Source of the DNA: Pseudomonadaceae bacterium
Lineage (GTDB): Bacteria > Pseudomonadota > Gammaproteobacteria > Pseudomonadales > Azotimanducaceae
Direction of reading: 5' to 3'
DNA length: 64,000 bases
NCBI GenBank assembly: GCA_024743175.1
Contig: JANSXA010000006.1
Location: 248,001 to 312,000, forward strand
The translations under genes were made by a program, and so were the position numbers. Position 1 is the stretch's first letter; each line of letters begins with the position of its first letter. The notes beneath the pieces were generated by a model. It ran no database searches, was not told where the DNA came from, and worked only from the letters and a program-made list of their open reading frames with translations. Positions 9,264 through 48,765 of this stretch are shown here, piece by piece.

Positions 9264-10661
9264 GTGGCCAACCTGAAAGCGCCTGATCTGGTACTGCAAC
9301 CGGTATCTGTTACACGAAAAATGTCGGCATCATTGCCGCGCCTGCGAGAAATTGCGCAAAGCAAAGGTCTGAAAATTCATCACCTGGGTGCGGGTTATCC
9401 TCACCCTGAAGTGACCGATCCGCGTGGTTTTATCGAACATCAGAATGCCTATTTTGACCATCTGCAGCAGGTGGAAGGGTTGAATGACCCTGAAGCACTG
9501 CCGGAATATCTGCGCGAGTCGTTTTCTTATGGGGATACCCTCGGACCGCGGACTACGAGAGAGGTGTTTGCGCAGGTGTATGGTGCAGACTGGGATATCG
9601 ACATCGATATCAGGAAGCTTATACCGACGGTCGGTGCAACTGGTGGTATCAACCTGATGTGCAGCCTCGCTGAGAGGCCGGGTACACCAGTGGCCTACAT
9701 TACCGATGCGCCAACTTATGCGGGATTTACAGCCCGTGTGTCCCTTTGTCAGCATGCGCGCATTTTCAGTGTCGATATGGACGAGGAAGGTGCGCTGCCG
9801 GATCAGTTTCGTGCACAGATTCTTGCAGCCCGTGAGCAGGGTTATTTTGTGCCGTTCTATTACACCGTGCCCGATGGCCACAACCCGGCAGGTTTTTCTT
9901 TCTCCCAGGCGCGCCGGGAAGCACTGCTCAACATCGCGCGAGAGGAAGGCATTCTGATTGTTGAAGATGCACCTTATCTCTATATCAACTTTGCGCCGTC
10001 ATCTGCGCGTCCGAAACCGTTTTTTGCCATGGCGCCGGAACAGACCGTGCATCTGTTCACCGGCTCAAAAATCGGCTTCCCTGGTCCCAGGGTGGGATTT
10101 TTATACAGCCAGGCGACCCTCACTATTGCTGATGGTAAAACCGTTGATCTGGCTGAGATGGCGTTGACCGAGGCCAGCTCTGACATTCTTTTTCAGAATC
10201 CTGCGGCACTGCGTGGATTTGAAGCCCTGCTGCACGATGCGCAATTTGAACCGATCAGCAGTATGTGGCTGCTGGCAGAAGAGAAATTAGGCGTTTATCG
10301 AGAGAACCGTGAGATTCTGTTGTCTGTTCTGGAAGAAAAACTGGGCCAGTATCCAGAGTATTTTTCCTGGACCCGGCCTGATGCAGGGTTTTTCTCTGTA
10401 TTTACCTTCAGGCAGTCCTCCATAAAAACTGACGACAGCTTTATAGAGTCGTTAGTGGCGCAATATGGTGTGGTTGCAATCCCGATGTATGATTTCTACC
10501 CCGCTGATGCAAAGGCGCGAGACCCTGACGCCGGTCTGAATCAGCTGCGCTTGAGCTTCTGCTTCAGCGAAAGCAAAGGTGAGGCCCGACGCGTTGACAT
10601 GCGCGAGGCAATAACTACGTTCTGTGATGCTGCATTGCAGCTGACGGGTCTTCAGAACTAG
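9264..10661 (+). CDS. Class I/II PLP-dependent aminotransferase
   Basis: A 465-residue fold-type I aminotransferase starting at GTG 9264. The PLP-site motifs are visible: DGHNPAGFSF (the usual NPxG loop), EDAPYLY (Asp contacting the pyridine nitrogen) and FTGSKIGFPGPRVGF, where the lysine forms the Schiff base. The pattern is closest to the LysN/MocR-type aminotransferase group. No substrate-specific context is present, because the neighbours are RsgA and, convergently, a CoA-binding protein. Its stop overlaps by 4 bp the stop end of the minus-strand gene at 10658, so the two genes are tail to tail with no terminator between them. Confidence 0.85.
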   Translation: MANLKAPDLVLQPVSVTRKMSASLPRLREIAQSKGLKIHHLGAGYPHPEVTDPRGFIEHQNAYFDHLQQVEGLNDPEALPEYLRESFSYGDTLGPRTTREVFAQVYGADWDIDIDIRKLIPTVGATGGINLMCSLAERPGTPVAYITDAPTYAGFTARVSLCQHARIFSVDMDEEGALPDQFRAQILAAREQGYFVPFYYTVPDGHNPAGFSFSQARREALLNIAREEGILIVEDAPYLYINFAPSSARPKPFFAMAPEQTVHLFTGSKIGFPGPRVGFLYSQATLTIADGKTVDLAEMALTEASSDILFQNPAALRGFEALLHDAQFEPISSMWLLAEEKLGVYRENREILLSVLEEKLGQYPEYFSWTRPDAGFFSVFTFRQSSIKTDDSFIESLVAQYGVVAIPMYDFYPADAKARDPDAGLNQLRLSFCFSESKGEARRVDMREAITTFCDAALQLTGLQN

Positions 10662-25567: not shown

Positions 25568-26787
25568 ATGCAACACCTGTTGGAAGACATCACTGTGATC
25601 GATGCGGCAACTTATCTGGCTGGACCGGGTGCTGCCACGATTCTGGCGGACTTCGGCGCTAACGTGATCAAAATAGAACCGCCGGGTGGCGATGGTTATC
25701 GCAGCCTGGTGGGCGCCATCCTGTGCCGTATCACTGGCTGCTGACGTCGCGCAACAAGCGCAGTCTGGCTATGGATCTGCGCAGTGATGCCGGCCAGGCG
25801 CTGATGCATGATCTGGTGGCCAAAGCAGACGTGCTGACCACTAACTTCATGCGCTCCCAGCTGGACAAATATCAACTGTCTTATGACACGCTGAAACGCG
25901 TGAATCCACGTCTGGTTTTTGCCCACATCTCCGGCTATGGCCTGAAAGGCCCGGATGCGGACCGGCGTGCCTTTGATGTGACCGGCTGGTGGGCCCGTTC
26001 CGGATTGATGGAATTCATCCGCCAGCCCGGGCAGACCCCAATGCCCATGGCCCCGGGCATGGGTGATCACTGCACCGCAACAGCGCTGTTTGGCGCGGTT
26101 ATGACCGGCCTCTACCGCCGCGAACGCACCGGTGAAGGATCGTTTGTCTCCACGTCACTGGCGGCCAATGGGGTGTGGGCCAATGGCATGGCGTTGCAGG
26201 GTGTGATAGCGGGGAACAACATCGGCACCTATCGCCAGGCCAAAGGCTGGCCAAACCCGTTCAGTGATGTGTACCGCTGCAGTGATGGTGAATATGTGGT
26301 GCTGGCGGTGATCAACACGGCGCGGGAATACCCGGCGCTGGCAGCCGCACTGGATTGTGAGCACTGGTTAGCTGATGAACGTTTTGCCAATGTGGGCAGC
26401 GTCATGAAAAACCGGCCGGACTTTCATCTGGCCATGGCGGAGGCTTTCTCGCAGTTCACTTTTGGGCAGGCCAGTGCGCGCCTGGAAGCGGCGGGTGTCA
26501 CCTTCAGTCGGGTGACGCCGATGGGTGACATTATTGACGATGAGCAGATGCGCGCCAATGAGATAGTGGTCGAAACCGGGGATGACGGTGAAGGCTACCC
26601 GCTGACCATCAACAGCCCCATCAGCGTCGCTGAATCTCCCAATCGCAAACCTAAACGAGCGCCCGATGTCGGTGCAGACAGTCTGGCTGTGTTGCGGGAG
26701 CTGGGCATTGAAGAGCAGCGCATCCAGACGTTGCTGGCTGATGAGGTCATTTTCACCGCTGAAACGAAGACCCAGGAGGGGGTATGA
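25568..26787 (+). pseudogene. CaiB/BaiF CoA transferase interrupted by a frameshift
   Basis: ATG 25568 has a GGGGAGA ribosome site. The frame encodes DITVIDAATYLAGPGAATILADFGANVIKIEPPGGDGYR and then, after LVG, stops at TGA 25742-25744. The natural continuation (HPVPYHWLLTSRNKRSLAMDLR) is present one frame over, beginning at about 25727 and open to 26787. A single-base indel around 25718-25727 would restore a protein of about 405 residues, normal for family III CoA transferases. Either the gene is recently broken or the base is an assembly error. Where formyl-CoA transferase-type enzymes place the catalytic Asp, this copy reads TSLAANG with no acidic residue. The 3' end overlaps the next gene by 4 bp. 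Confidence 0.8.
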
Positions 26788-27662
26788 AACTAGGTATACA
26801 CGCAGGTCCACAGGATCTTTCAATGGATGAGCTCAAACGTCTCTGGCAGATTGGCGATACCAGAGGTTTTCACTGGGTTTCGGTGTGGGATCATTTCTAT
26901 GCCAACCCGTTGAAAGATCGCGAAAATCCCTGTTTTGAAGGCGTTGCTGCCATGGCGGGCCTGGCGGCTTCAACTTCCAATGTTCGGGTGGGATGTCTTG
27001 TTTTCTGTGCGCTGTTCAGAAACCCAGGCGTGCTGGCAAAAGCGGGTGTCACTATTGATCATCTATCCGGTGGGCGTGCTGATGTGGGTATCGGTGCGGG
27101 CTGGTTTGAAGAAGAGTTCCGTGACTTTGGGTATGGCTTCCCACCACTGGGAGAGCGTTTTGATCAACTGGAAGAAGCTCTGGAGATAATCACCAAGCTG
27201 TGGCGCGGCGAAACCGTGGACCTTAAAGGCAAGTACTACACCATGAGCGAAGCGGTCTGTGCGCCGAAGCCGCTGGGTTTGCGCCTGTGGATTGGTGGTC
27301 GAGGTAAGCAGCGCACCGTATCGCTGGCTGCTAAATATGCTGACGGTTTTAATATGCCGTATGTGTCGCCAGAAATTGCCGCAGACCGGCTGTCGCGGCT
27401 GACACAGGCCTGTGAAAAAATTGGCCGTGATCCTGCGGAAATAGACACCAGTGTTAACCTGGGTTTTTACATGAATTCAGCCAGACAGCCGGATATAGAT
27501 CCGAACGGCTCGTTAACCGGCAGCGCTCAACAGGCGGTGGATCTGATTGGCCGATTTCAGGATGTTGGCATCCAGGGCATCAATATCGCCTTCCGGCCGC
27601 CGGTAGATTGGGACAATCTGCAGGTCTACATCGAGGAAGTCATGCCTCATTTTGCCCAGTAA
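26784..27662 (+). CDS. LLM-class (F420/FMN-dependent) oxidoreductase
   Basis: 292 residues of the bacterial luciferase-like TIM-barrel superfamily. Typical parts are GFHWVSVWDHFYA near residue 30, GCLVFCALFRNPGVLAKAGVTIDHLSGGRADVGIGAGW and LWIGGRGKQRTVSLAAKYADG. The family resemblance is strongest to the F420-dependent LLM group, but FMN cannot be excluded. The substrate is unknown. It overlaps the end of the frameshifted CoA transferase by ATGA, so it belonged to the same operon. Its expression may be affected if ribosomes terminate early upstream. Confidence 0.87.
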   Translation: MKLGIHAGPQDLSMDELKRLWQIGDTRGFHWVSVWDHFYANPLKDRENPCFEGVAAMAGLAASTSNVRVGCLVFCALFRNPGVLAKAGVTIDHLSGGRADVGIGAGWFEEEFRDFGYGFPPLGERFDQLEEALEIITKLWRGETVDLKGKYYTMSEAVCAPKPLGLRLWIGGRGKQRTVSLAAKYADGFNMPYVSPEIAADRLSRLTQACEKIGRDPAEIDTSVNLGFYMNSARQPDIDPNGSLTGSAQQAVDLIGRFQDVGIQGINIAFRPPVDWDNLQVYIEEVMPHFAQ

Positions 27663-28849: not shown

Positions 28850-28967
28850 GAGGTGTCCGTGGCGTTGAAAAGTCAAAGTCTAGGACGGGACCGGCAGGGG
28901 CACAATAGAGTAAACTGCACTTCAAACCAGGTTCCTACGGTGTTCTGTTAAAAAACAGGGGAAAAAG

Positions 28968-29516
28968 ATGACAACATTCCATGACCCGCGCGGCGAAGTG
29001 GCAACTGCCGCAGAGCCTTACACACTGAGCTACAACCTCACTGCGCAGGAGGGCACCGGCACCACGGTTGGCCTTCTGGCCAATGGGTTTCCGGATTCAG
29101 ATAACTTCCTGCACGCGGTGGGCGCAGCGCTTACGAATCGTCTGCCGGGCTTAAAGGTTAAGTTCTGGAACAAAGGCAACGCATCTATCCCGGCGCCCGA
29201 TGACATGCTGGCGGAAATCAAAGCCAGCTGTCAGGTGGCCATTGCCGCCTATGGCCACTGAGGCAGTTGTACTACCGGCACCGTGCGTGACGGCATCAGT
29301 ATGGCTCGTTTAGGTATTCCTTCAGTGGCTCTGGTGACAGAAGATTTCTGGCCCCAGGGAGACTTTACCGCCCGTTCGCTGGGTATGCCTGATGCACCCC
29401 GTGTGCAGCTCCCGCATCCCGTAGCAGGCACTGGAGAGGCTAATCTGCAGCGTGTGGCCAGCGAGGTTGTGGATAATATTATGCAGAGTTTTACGGCGGA
29501 ACCCGATCATGTCTGA
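28968..29516 (+). CDS. UGSC-family selenoprotein (TGA read as Sec98)
   Basis: An AGGGGAAAAAG ribosome site precedes ATG 28968. The frame encodes 97 residues ending AIAAYGH, then meets TGA at 29259-29261 and continues in the same frame with GSCTTGTVRDGISMARLGIPSVALVTED to the true stop at 29514. Read as selenocysteine, the TGA gives U98-G-S-C101, exactly the motif that names the UGSC family of (seleno)proteins. This places Sec as the probable redox or nucleophilic residue with resolving Cys101. The full product is 182 residues. Family function is not established. The last 8 bp overlap the next gene. An ordinary nonsense mutation is the alternative, but the motif position and conserved downstream frame argue against it. 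Confidence 0.85.
29262..29301 (+). promoter_or_regulatory. Candidate bacterial SECIS hairpin after the TGA codon
   Basis: Starting 13 nt after the TGA, CCG-G-CAC / GUG-A-CGG pair around the five-base loop CGUGC (29275-29293), with a G/A mismatch. An outer UACU/AGUA helix (29270-29273 with 29298-29301) extends it. Position and size fit a SelB-binding SECIS, which in bacteria lies inside the coding region just after UGA and exposes G and U in its loop. It was folded by eye only. Confidence 0.45.
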
Positions 29517-30573
29517 GTGGCTTGAAGCTGCAGATGAAGCTGCAGCGCTGGAACAGTTGCACGACCTTGGCTGCACCGATGGTCTGCCGGTGGTGATTCC
29601 CACCATCGAGCGGGTTGAGCGCATGGTCCTGGCCAGCGGTCAGGCAGCAGATATGGTGCTCGGGGTGATGGGTCCGGCGTTAGGTGTTGCAACCGTCGAA
29701 AAAGTGGCAGTGGCTGCGGTAATGGCAGGCTGTACCGCCGAACACATGCCGGTGGTGATGGCTGCTGTACAGGCGGTGCTGCAGCCTGAATTTGATTTAA
29801 CTGAAATGCAGTCTACTACCCACTGCACGGCACCATTGATCATTGTGAACGGGCCGGCAAGGCACGACTGTGGTGGCATCGCAAGTGGCTTTGGTGCGTT
29901 GGGCCCTGGGCACCGGGCGAATGCCAGTATCGGCCGCGCATTACGTCTGTGCATGATCAATATCGGCGGTGCACGTCCGGGCTCATCAGATATGGCGCTG
30001 CTGGGGCATCCTGGCAAGTTCACCTACTGTCTGGCGGAAGACGAAGAACATTCACCGTTCACACCGCTACATGTTGGTCGTGGATTTGCGCCTGACGACA
30101 GCGTGGTGACGGTGATTGGCGCAGAAGCCCCACATTCGGTGATCTACTCGGGTAATGCAGACGACCCCAACGATGCAGAAAACCTGTTACACCAACTGGC
30201 GGTAGGGCTGGCCAATATGGCGACCAACAATGCGGTGCTCACCGGTGGCGGTGCGGTGGTGGTTCTGAATCCGGAACATGCGCAGATTTTGTCCCAGGCC
30301 AACTTAACCCGTGAACACATCGTGCAGCGCCTGTTTGAGCTGACCCACTTTCCCAAAGCACAGCTCAAACAGTATGGCGGTTCGTTTGCCACGCGCATTA
30401 CCGGCGATGATGATTATCGGGCGTTTAACGCGCCAGAAGATATTCTGCTGCTGATGGCCGGCGGCAGCGGCCTGTATTCCATGGTCATGCCGAGCTGGTG
30501 TGCAGGCAAACATAAAAACAGCGCGGTGAGCCAGCTTGTTGAGCTGAATCCGTTCTGCGAAATACCCGGGTAA
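29509..30573 (+). CDS. Conserved protein of unknown function coupled to the UGSC selenoprotein
   Basis: 354 residues from ATG 29509, which overlaps the last 8 bp of the selenoprotein gene, so the two are almost certainly cotranslated. It is soluble and glycine/alanine-rich. Recognisable features are CTDGLPVVIPTIERVERM near the start, TTHCTAPLIIVNGPARHDCGGIASGFGALGPGHRANASIGRA in the first half and MAGGSGLYSMVMPSWCAG near the end. Several cysteines (in THCT, HDCGG, SWCAG) could pair with the Sec/Cys centre of the neighbour. I do not recognise a named enzyme family. The tight overlap suggests a partner or substrate-binding subunit of the selenoprotein. Confidence 0.75.
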   Translation: MSEWLEAADEAAALEQLHDLGCTDGLPVVIPTIERVERMVLASGQAADMVLGVMGPALGVATVEKVAVAAVMAGCTAEHMPVVMAAVQAVLQPEFDLTEMQSTTHCTAPLIIVNGPARHDCGGIASGFGALGPGHRANASIGRALRLCMINIGGARPGSSDMALLGHPGKFTYCLAEDEEHSPFTPLHVGRGFAPDDSVVTVIGAEAPHSVIYSGNADDPNDAENLLHQLAVGLANMATNNAVLTGGGAVVVLNPEHAQILSQANLTREHIVQRLFELTHFPKAQLKQYGGSFATRITGDDDYRAFNAPEDILLLMAGGSGLYSMVMPSWCAGKHKNSAVSQLVELNPFCEIPG

Positions 30574-32160: not shown

Positions 32161-33132
<972 letters not shown>

Positions 33133-47694: not shown

Positions 47695-48765
47695 ATGAAA
47701 ACGTATAAAATAGTGAAGCCAATGGTCGCCTTATTGGTGTTGATTGGGATACCAGTAGCGCACGCGGACCAGATAAGCGCGACCTACAAAGCGCGCGCCG
47801 GCGATTGTCTCTCGGGCATCGTGAAAGCGCATTACCCGGATTCAACCGGACATTTTTTTGTTTTGCACTGGAATCCCAATATCGTTGACGAGAATAGAAT
47901 CGAAGTCGGCCAGGCAATCATCTTGCCTGGGTTGAGCGATGATCAAATTCTCACAGAAGTAGACCAGGCCGGGTGCAACGCTGAGACCTTCTCGGTGCGA
48001 AACGCCTCGAAATCGGCGGTTACTGATAAAGCCCATGACGTCGCCGAAGCGCGCGTGCGCCTGGCGTCGACACCAATCGATCCGAAACCCGTCGTCGAAA
48101 AACGTCGACCGACCGACACGGCGTTTTCGAAGATCCCTCAAGTCACAGCCATAGAAAACAATGTCATCGCTTCAACCATTTCCGCGCAAACTGAAGTGAA
48201 CAAGGTATCGGCCAATCTAACACCGGCCCATCCAACACCGGCCAATCCAACACCGGCGACACGGACAAAGAACTCAACCCGTCAGTCGCCCCTCCGTCAG
48301 TCGAGCGGGACAAACGCGGTGCCGATTGATTTGAGCCAGCGGACGATGACGCTACCGGGCCGCGGAACACGCACCGTCGCAGCAATGTCCTCAAAGCCGC
48401 GGTTCGCGATTGACGACGAGTTAACGATGACGAGTCACTCGTATCGGCAATCAATGCCGAACCGTTATGTGGTGAACGCGATCGGCGCCCGCACATTGAC
48501 TGCTGTGAACGCGCTGGTTCAACACCCGGACCAACACTTCTACGTCGAGTCAAGAGCGGTATGGCAAGACGCTATAGGTGGGCACGGCCTGAAACGGAGT
48601 AACACGACGTCCACGCCAGCGAATAACTCGGTTTCAACAACAACCACACCGCTTGAGACTGTGCTGGTTCAAACGGAAGCCCCCAAAACGCAAAGCGCGG
48701 GAAATATTTTTATTGATGAATCGCTGTTGCTTAAAGCCGCAGCACAGTCAGGAGGCAACCCATGA
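47695..48765 (+). CDS. LysM-domain exported protein heading the tra operon
   Basis: 356 residues from ATG 47695, which gives a signal peptide (MKTYKIVKPMVALLVLIGIPVAHA). A LysM-like segment follows (YKARAGDCLSGIVKAHYPDSTGHFFVLHWNPNIVDENRIEVGQAIILPG, about 31-80). A long low-complexity Pro/Thr-rich linker with repeated TPA units (about 180-200) leads to a tail of unknown fold. LysM should bind peptidoglycan, so the protein may dock or open the cell wall for the conjugation apparatus. No lytic enzyme domain is seen. It overlaps the DsbC-like gene by 4 bp. Such a protein is not part of the F operon. Confidence 0.75.
   Translation: MKTYKIVKPMVALLVLIGIPVAHADQISATYKARAGDCLSGIVKAHYPDSTGHFFVLHWNPNIVDENRIEVGQAIILPGLSDDQILTEVDQAGCNAETFSVRNASKSAVTDKAHDVAEARVRLASTPIDPKPVVEKRRPTDTAFSKIPQVTAIENNVIASTISAQTEVNKVSANLTPAHPTPANPTPATRTKNSTRQSPLRQSSGTNAVPIDLSQRTMTLPGRGTRTVAAMSSKPRFAIDDELTMTSHSYRQSMPNRYVVNAIGARTLTAVNALVQHPDQHFYVESRAVWQDAIGGHGLKRSNTTSTPANNSVSTTTTPLETVLVQTEAPKTQSAGNIFIDESLLLKAAAQSGGNP

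Follow-up and report, generated by a model that had tools for sequence, protein, structure and literature searches.

We conclude that one gene in the 64,000-nucleotide stretch of Pseudomonadaceae DNA analysed here (the window) almost certainly encodes a selenoprotein of the UGSC family, in which an in-frame UGA, codon 98, is read as selenocysteine (Sec). That this organism decodes the UGA had been put forward in an original prediction on the same DNA, and it is now supported by the Sec gene set of the genome, by TGA at the equivalent codon in 77 of 77 places, by a block of frozen synonymous sites and by homologues that carry Cys. Taken as a whole, our best explanation is that the UGSC protein belongs to a two-subunit selenoenzyme that would act on a small molecule and be recycled by thiols, and we hold this explanation with high confidence.

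The UGSC family itself has already been described, and it accounts for 8.2% of selenoprotein genes in a marine survey, according to the available part of PMC9402790. In the available parts of five papers on the family (PMC2398784, PMC13188914, PMC9312934, PMC5029168 and PMC9402790), we found reports of its occurrence and no function, no link to GrdB or PrdB, and no constant partner gene beyond a fusion to a domain called Unknown_1; PMC13188914 does mention both UGSC and glycine reductase. The constant partner gene and the possible kinship with GrdB and PrdB that we describe below were not found in these parts of the literature, and together they offer a concrete handle on UGSC function.

A UGSC-family gene with an in-frame UGA

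The gene occupies positions 28968-29516 of the forward strand. It starts with the ATG at 28968, with a candidate ribosome-binding site (AGGGG) at 28957-28961, and its reading frame extends over 28968-29513, followed by a TGA stop codon at 29514-29516. The original prediction had located the in-frame TGA at 29259-29261, inside one uninterrupted frame with the next stop at 29514, and both sequence and translation show these coordinates to be exact. Translation likewise bears out the predicted residues AIAAYGH before this TGA and GSCTTGTVRDGISMARLGIP after it and, when the TGA is taken as Sec, a protein of 182 residues with the site U98-G-S-C101.

Assignment to the UGSC family, which had been proposed from this motif, was borne out by a profile search. 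The joined 182-residue protein matches the Pfam family UGSC (PF24696) with an E-value of 1.2e-46 (159.4 bits, cut-off 25), and it has the U/C-G-S-C site that is typical of the family. Residues 1-97 alone match positions 3-92 of PF24696 (E 3e-15), and the part beyond the TGA alone matches positions 94-171 (E 8e-23). Because the two halves match adjoining positions of the profile, the TGA corresponds to one residue of a single domain. The window protein scores 113.8 bits with the NCBIfam model NF041046, "UGSC family (seleno)protein", which is below its cut-off of 125, and family membership therefore stands on the Pfam match and the motif. At E-values up to 1 (best 4e-50), this model does match each of the 43 aligned UGSC proteins. 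The window protein shares the full length of its domain with the known family (PF24696, NF041046 and, as far as the available part of PMC2398784 describes it, the "UGSC-containing protein"), as well as the U-G-S-C site, which occurs in Sec and Cys forms.

It was also predicted that standard gene callers would misannotate such genes, and we found this in plasmid copies from Acidovorax and Paracoccus ferrooxidans. The Acidovorax copy has the TGA, at which its annotated hypothetical protein stops, and the P. ferrooxidans copy, also with TGA, is annotated as two hypothetical proteins. These split or cut annotations are at L124:4983-5552 and 9955-10492 and at L123:4914-5204. In P. ferrooxidans, selB lies about 4.5 kb downstream of the UGSC gene on the same plasmid.

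Conservation of the UGA codon

We searched 58 genomes, comprising the organism's own genome and others of the same genus and the same order (the relatives' set), with PF24696. Matches were found in 37 of these genomes, at 77 places with one internal TGA each, and in all 77 the TGA is at the equivalent of codon 98. Two of the places are cut by contig ends, and a third (L093) has ambiguous bases nearby. The places fall into group I, to which the window gene belongs (AAYGH-U-GSC; 31 places), group II (EALAD-U-GSC and near variants; 34 places) and group III (TANGD- or TAAGD-U-GSC; 12 places). Group I proteins have the sequence UGSCTTG and lack the further Cys that is present in groups II and III. 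The source genome has a second UGSC selenoprotein gene, a member of group II at L094:6995-7510 (G000:C18) with its partner gene upstream; it precedes the window gene by about 52 kb and is not part of the window.

Among 16 more divergent UGSC loci, one of which (L086) is also among the 77 places, the site is TGA in six and Cys in ten, so that a conserved in-frame UGA is accompanied by Cys in other homologues. A scan of contigs for UGSC homologues gave only four loci because its pattern demanded CGSC, and it finds only such forms. The original prediction had stated that family members carry Sec, Cys or Thr at this place; Sec and Cys both occur, and Thr was not seen among the 77 places and the 16 divergent loci. 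It had also named what would count against it, namely homologues whose site is none of these three and whose downstream frame is degraded. The homologues have TGA or Cys, their downstream frames are intact, and extra selection acts on synonymous sites in the hairpin region described below.

A conserved hairpin downstream of the UGA

Comparative evidence points to a SECIS hairpin, CCGGCACCGUGCGUGACGGC, at 29275-29294 on the forward strand; neither this hairpin nor the partner gene described below figured in the original prediction. The hairpin consists of the pairs CCG/CGG, a G.A mismatch, the pairs CAC/GUG and the loop CGUGC. Of the 30 group I sequences covering this region, 29 have exactly this block, and the remaining one differs at the last base.

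To quantify this constraint, we calculated relative synonymous entropy in columns with an amino acid conservation of at least 90%, using 26 distinct group I sequences without ambiguous bases and, separately, 42 sequences of groups II and III. Codons +5 to +11 downstream of the TGA have an entropy of 0.02 in group I and 0.054 in groups II and III, compared with 0.816 (63 columns) and 0.849 (32 columns), respectively, for the other columns. Outside codons +5 to +11, none of the columns conserved to at least 90% is codon-invariant, and in neither set did any of 100,000 permutations reach the observed value. We take the frozen synonymous sites at these codons to mark the hairpin at 29275-29294. 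Such a block would also offer a simple means of recognising, in genome sequence, which UGA codons encode Sec and which are stops.

The pairing is also consistent across the family. For the hairpin of 22 distinct group I sequences, all 132 cells hold standard pairs. A six-pair stem with a three-base loop that starts with GU, at +23 to +25 (the U of the UGA being +1), is found in groups II and III and in five divergent Sec genes; there, standard pairs occupy 84/84, 60/60 and 30/30 cells, respectively, and the fifth pair shows a compensatory change from C-G to G-C. Given this form in the other groups, the window's hairpin is best seen as a variant with a five-base loop. A hairpin of the same kind, one base nearer to the UGA, occurs in 39 distinct Sec genes for PrdB-like proteins (discussed below) of the same genomes, where 212 of 234 pairs are standard with several types of pair, the GU loop is present in 39/39, and none of 5000 arm shuffles was as good. 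Forcing the UGSC and PrdB-like hairpins into one register leaves 224 of 408 pairs standard, compared to the 212/234 of the PrdB-like hairpins in their own register, and we rejected a common register.

According to the available parts of PMC1088965 and PMC10778597, bacterial SECIS elements have a small apical loop that contains G and lies 16-37 nt from the UGA. The window's loop, CGUGC, agrees with this, occupying bases 24-28 counting from the U of the UGA. Folding of the single sequence after the TGA gave an energy that is not beyond that of shuffled sequences, so the case for the SECIS element stands on comparison. A scan of the window for TGA codons with such a hairpin and open frames on both sides found two sites, the UGSC site and one at 48671 on the minus strand (41 codons before, 42 after), which we rejected as not protein-like.

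Selenocysteine machinery

The assembly that contains the window (4.72 Mb, 98% complete) encodes a tRNA-Sec (71.7 bits, gathering score 47), for which ARAGORN agrees (tRNA-SeC, anticodon tca), as well as selB (424 bits, cut-off 242) and selA (518 bits, cut-off 268). These three genes form one cluster at C7:276126-279444 (contig 7). At a distance of 11 kb from this cluster is a selD domain (271 bits, cut-off 125), within a 725-residue frame (L097:16477-18654, minus strand) that has an N-terminal pyridine nucleotide-disulfide oxidoreductase domain fused to it. Some caution is called for here, as this fusion also scores 497 bits with the NCBIfam model "fusion_not_SelD", below the cut-off of 700. 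The search for selA, selB, selC and selD that the original prediction recommended has found the full gene set for a bacterial selenoprotein, selD being present as one domain of a fusion, and the absence of selB or selC that would have spoken against decoding is refuted. In the proposed mechanism, SelB with Sec-tRNA would decode UGA98, guided by the hairpin.

What weighs against decoding is that, in the relatives' set, selB scores over the cut-off in only 27 of the 37 genomes that have UGSC genes. Three of the ten genomes without selB over the cut-off (G010, G029 and G031) are at least 90% complete, although they are in 390-520 contigs. Other data are in favour. In a sample of 398 genomes of the phylum, PF24696 was found in five. 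All three that have TGA at the UGSC site (G000, G193 and G365) have selB at E-values up to 1e-60, and at the same threshold selB was not found in either genome with TGC at the site (G197 and G331).

A constant partner gene

Immediately downstream of the UGSC gene, at 29509-30573 on the forward strand, is a gene for a protein of 354 amino acids whose ATG overlaps the end of the UGSC gene by 8 bases. Because of this overlap, translation of the partner would probably drop as well if UGA98 were not decoded. The partner is beside the UGSC gene, on the same strand, in 75 of the 77 places, and the two exceptions (L027 and L096) are cut by contig ends. It is downstream of the UGSC gene in group I and upstream in groups II and III. 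It also accompanies the UGSC gene, whether of Sec or Cys type, in 15 of 15 further divergent loci, which include beta- and alphaproteobacteria, actinobacteria and a haloarchaeon. The source genome has exactly two copies of the partner, each beside one of its two UGSC genes. That the pairing persists through changes in gene order and swaps of Sec to Cys is strong evidence, at the level of gene arrangement, for a shared function, and it is very probable that the two proteins form the two subunits of one enzyme.

The partner's sequence has given few clues. The window copy has no match to any Pfam or NCBIfam family, and 38 members of the partner family match only three Pfam families at E-values up to 1, the best being 0.026. 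No PDB sequence matches better than E 0.83, and the partner profile matches neither the neighbouring fumarase nor GrdB/PrdB-type proteins. The best Foldseek match (E 4.9e-3) is to a two-subunit fumarate hydratase and, with TM-scores of 0.26-0.29, is unconvincing. An iron-sulfur role was also considered and is unsupported.

The available part of PMC2398784 reports UGSC fused to the uncharacterised domain Unknown_1. There, as here, an uncharacterised domain goes with UGSC; Unknown_1 is fused to it, whereas the partner in our genomes is a separate neighbouring gene. On a Neorhizobium galegae plasmid (L127:4884-6552), one annotated frame covers UGSC plus the beginning of the partner, and the next covers the remainder of the partner, which looks like either a natural fusion or a frame break.

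Predicted fold and possible relationship to GrdB and PrdB

An AlphaFold2 model of the UGSC protein, built with 43 sequences, has a pLDDT of 92.7 and predicts an alpha/beta domain of five strands, each separated from the next by a helix. Sec98 directly follows strand three, where a helix begins. The Foldseek matches for this model are weak and belong to the Rossmann or flavodoxin type (best E 8e-4, TM-scores up to 0.55), and none of the 50 listed is to a thioredoxin. In the model, the domain is Rossmann-like, and the predicted order of strands and helices is not that of thioredoxin.

The GrdB and PrdB subunits of glycine and D-proline reductase (PF07355, TIGR04483) present a possible parallel. 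Proteins that match PF07355 (GRDB) occur in 34 of the 58 genomes. The profile match stops just before a TGA, and a profile scan therefore counts no internal stop in these genes. When read through the TGA, 40 of 40 such PrdB-like loci have Sec, one each except for L137 with two, and U-x-x-C is present in 37 of the 40. They comprise L105 and L154 (G000:C4:112104 and C7:411059) and 38 related loci. All ten aligned PrdB-like proteins match the PrdB model TIGR04483 (best E 2e-52); the first of them scores 157 bits, and the cut-off is 300.

Prompted by a GrdB motif, we compared the two families using their sequences. The profile of 57 UGSC sequences aligns with that of the 40 PrdB-like proteins over 61 columns, placing Sec on Sec, with a probability of 48-53% (P 1.8e-4 in one direction and 1.4e-4 in the other); none of the controls, one reversed and eight column-shuffled, gave P below 0.087. 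On its own, the window protein has no match to PF07355, and only three of 43 UGSC members match TIGR01917 at E-values up to 1 (best 0.068). The likenesses are the UxxC motif, a Sec that follows a strand and precedes a helix, the alignment of Sec on Sec and, in the same genomes, a shared kind of SECIS element. As differences, GrdB/PrdB-type proteins have another partner protein, and the window protein has no PF07355 match. The weak but in-register profile match is suggestive of a relationship, not proof of one, and we give homology about an even chance.

With this caveat, UGSC might work like the GrdB and PrdB subunits. UGSC and its partner would form a two-subunit enzyme in which Sec98, in the turn after the third strand of the Rossmann-like domain, would attack a small organic substrate; Cys101 would then resolve the selenium adduct, and thioredoxin and its reductase TrxB would restore the enzyme. 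By analogy, chemistry of the GrdB/PrdB type is conceivable for UGSC, though we would not count on it. Slightly more tentative is the idea that UGSC is a third, unrecognised branch of GrdB/PrdB-type subunits and provides the catalytic half, and the partner the other half, of an obligate two-subunit reductase. If true, such a reductase would span Sec-using and Cys-using bacteria and haloarchaea.

Gene neighbourhood and alternative explanations

It is likely that a UGSC selenoenzyme is recycled by thioredoxin. The window contains a gene for thioredoxin-disulfide reductase, TrxB, at 32161-33099 on the minus strand (TIGR01292, 386.5 bits, cut-off 343.45), which is a probable source of reducing power, although it is opposite in strand to the UGSC gene and beyond a fumarase. 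In 29 group I neighbourhoods compared by tblastn, several of which are incomplete, the fumarase was found in 21 and TrxB in 14. Within the genus, this proximity is, to judge from the neighbourhoods, partly synteny. Five group I loci with 8.8-10.5 kb of sequence are without any of the window gene's neighbours, yet keep UGSC and the partner.

Among ten named distant loci (four from the CGSC contig scan and six of 17 plasmid records), trxB is near UGSC in three, and seven have no accepted TrxB. In Arthrobacter, trxB, trxA, the partner and UGSC are in a row; in Variovorax, trxB is two genes before the UGSC-partner pair; and in a Nocardioidaceae metagenome-assembled genome a TrxB-family gene precedes the pair, scoring 334 bits, just under the cut-off. 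We did not count TrxB-like genes that tblastn placed beside UGSC in Pseudonocardia (L101), where the frame has no NCBIfam match at 1e-10, or in Neorhizobium (L127), where a CxxC search found none.

Such neighbours, with TrxB and TrxA genes near some loci, and the UxxC motif might indicate that UGSC is instead a thioredoxin-type selenoprotein, that is, a general thiol-disulfide oxidoreductase that is not specific to a substrate. We consider this unlikely, as the model's alternation of five strands with helices and the lack of any thioredoxin among the 50 Foldseek matches listed argue against it, and it leaves the constant partner gene unexplained.

The remaining neighbours of UGSC vary, including genes for CoA transferase, an LLM flavoprotein, aldehyde dehydrogenase, TauD dioxygenases and PEP mutase-type proteins, and they point to no substrate. 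In the window, positions 26784-27662 encode an LLM-class oxidoreductase that scores over the cut-off of the F420-dependent family TIGR03560 (239.4 bits, cut-off 231.4). A role of the UGSC-partner pair in the breakdown of organosulfur compounds or related organic acids could be read from the surroundings of some UGSC genes: Natrinema has annotated phosphosulfolactate synthase and isocitrate lyase/PEP mutase genes there, Arthrobacter the former and Acidovorax the latter, and TauD-family dioxygenases are near the second UGSC copy of the source genome. However, neighbours differ widely from locus to locus, and none of these genes is among the scanned neighbours of the window gene, so that we regard this role as slightly less likely still than a thioredoxin-type function.

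Explanations without Sec have a negligible probability. One Cys-type UGSC gene (L130, G331:C6) has a damaged look, with two frames and, at a position where group I carries Trp, an in-frame TGA. This gene and the mid-gene stop codon might suggest that the window's TGA is an ordinary nonsense mutation or sequencing error in a pseudogene, but this is in effect already refuted by the TGA at the same codon in 77/77 places of 37 genomes with intact frames, the frozen synonymous sites just downstream and the presence of the Sec machinery. It is equally improbable that the UGA stands for a different amino acid, for instance Trp, through a changed code or unprogrammed read-through; although the frame does run on past the UGA, the UGSC gene itself ends with TGA at 29514-29516, homologues without Sec carry Cys at the site, and tRNA-Sec, selB and a SECIS-like block downstream are all present.
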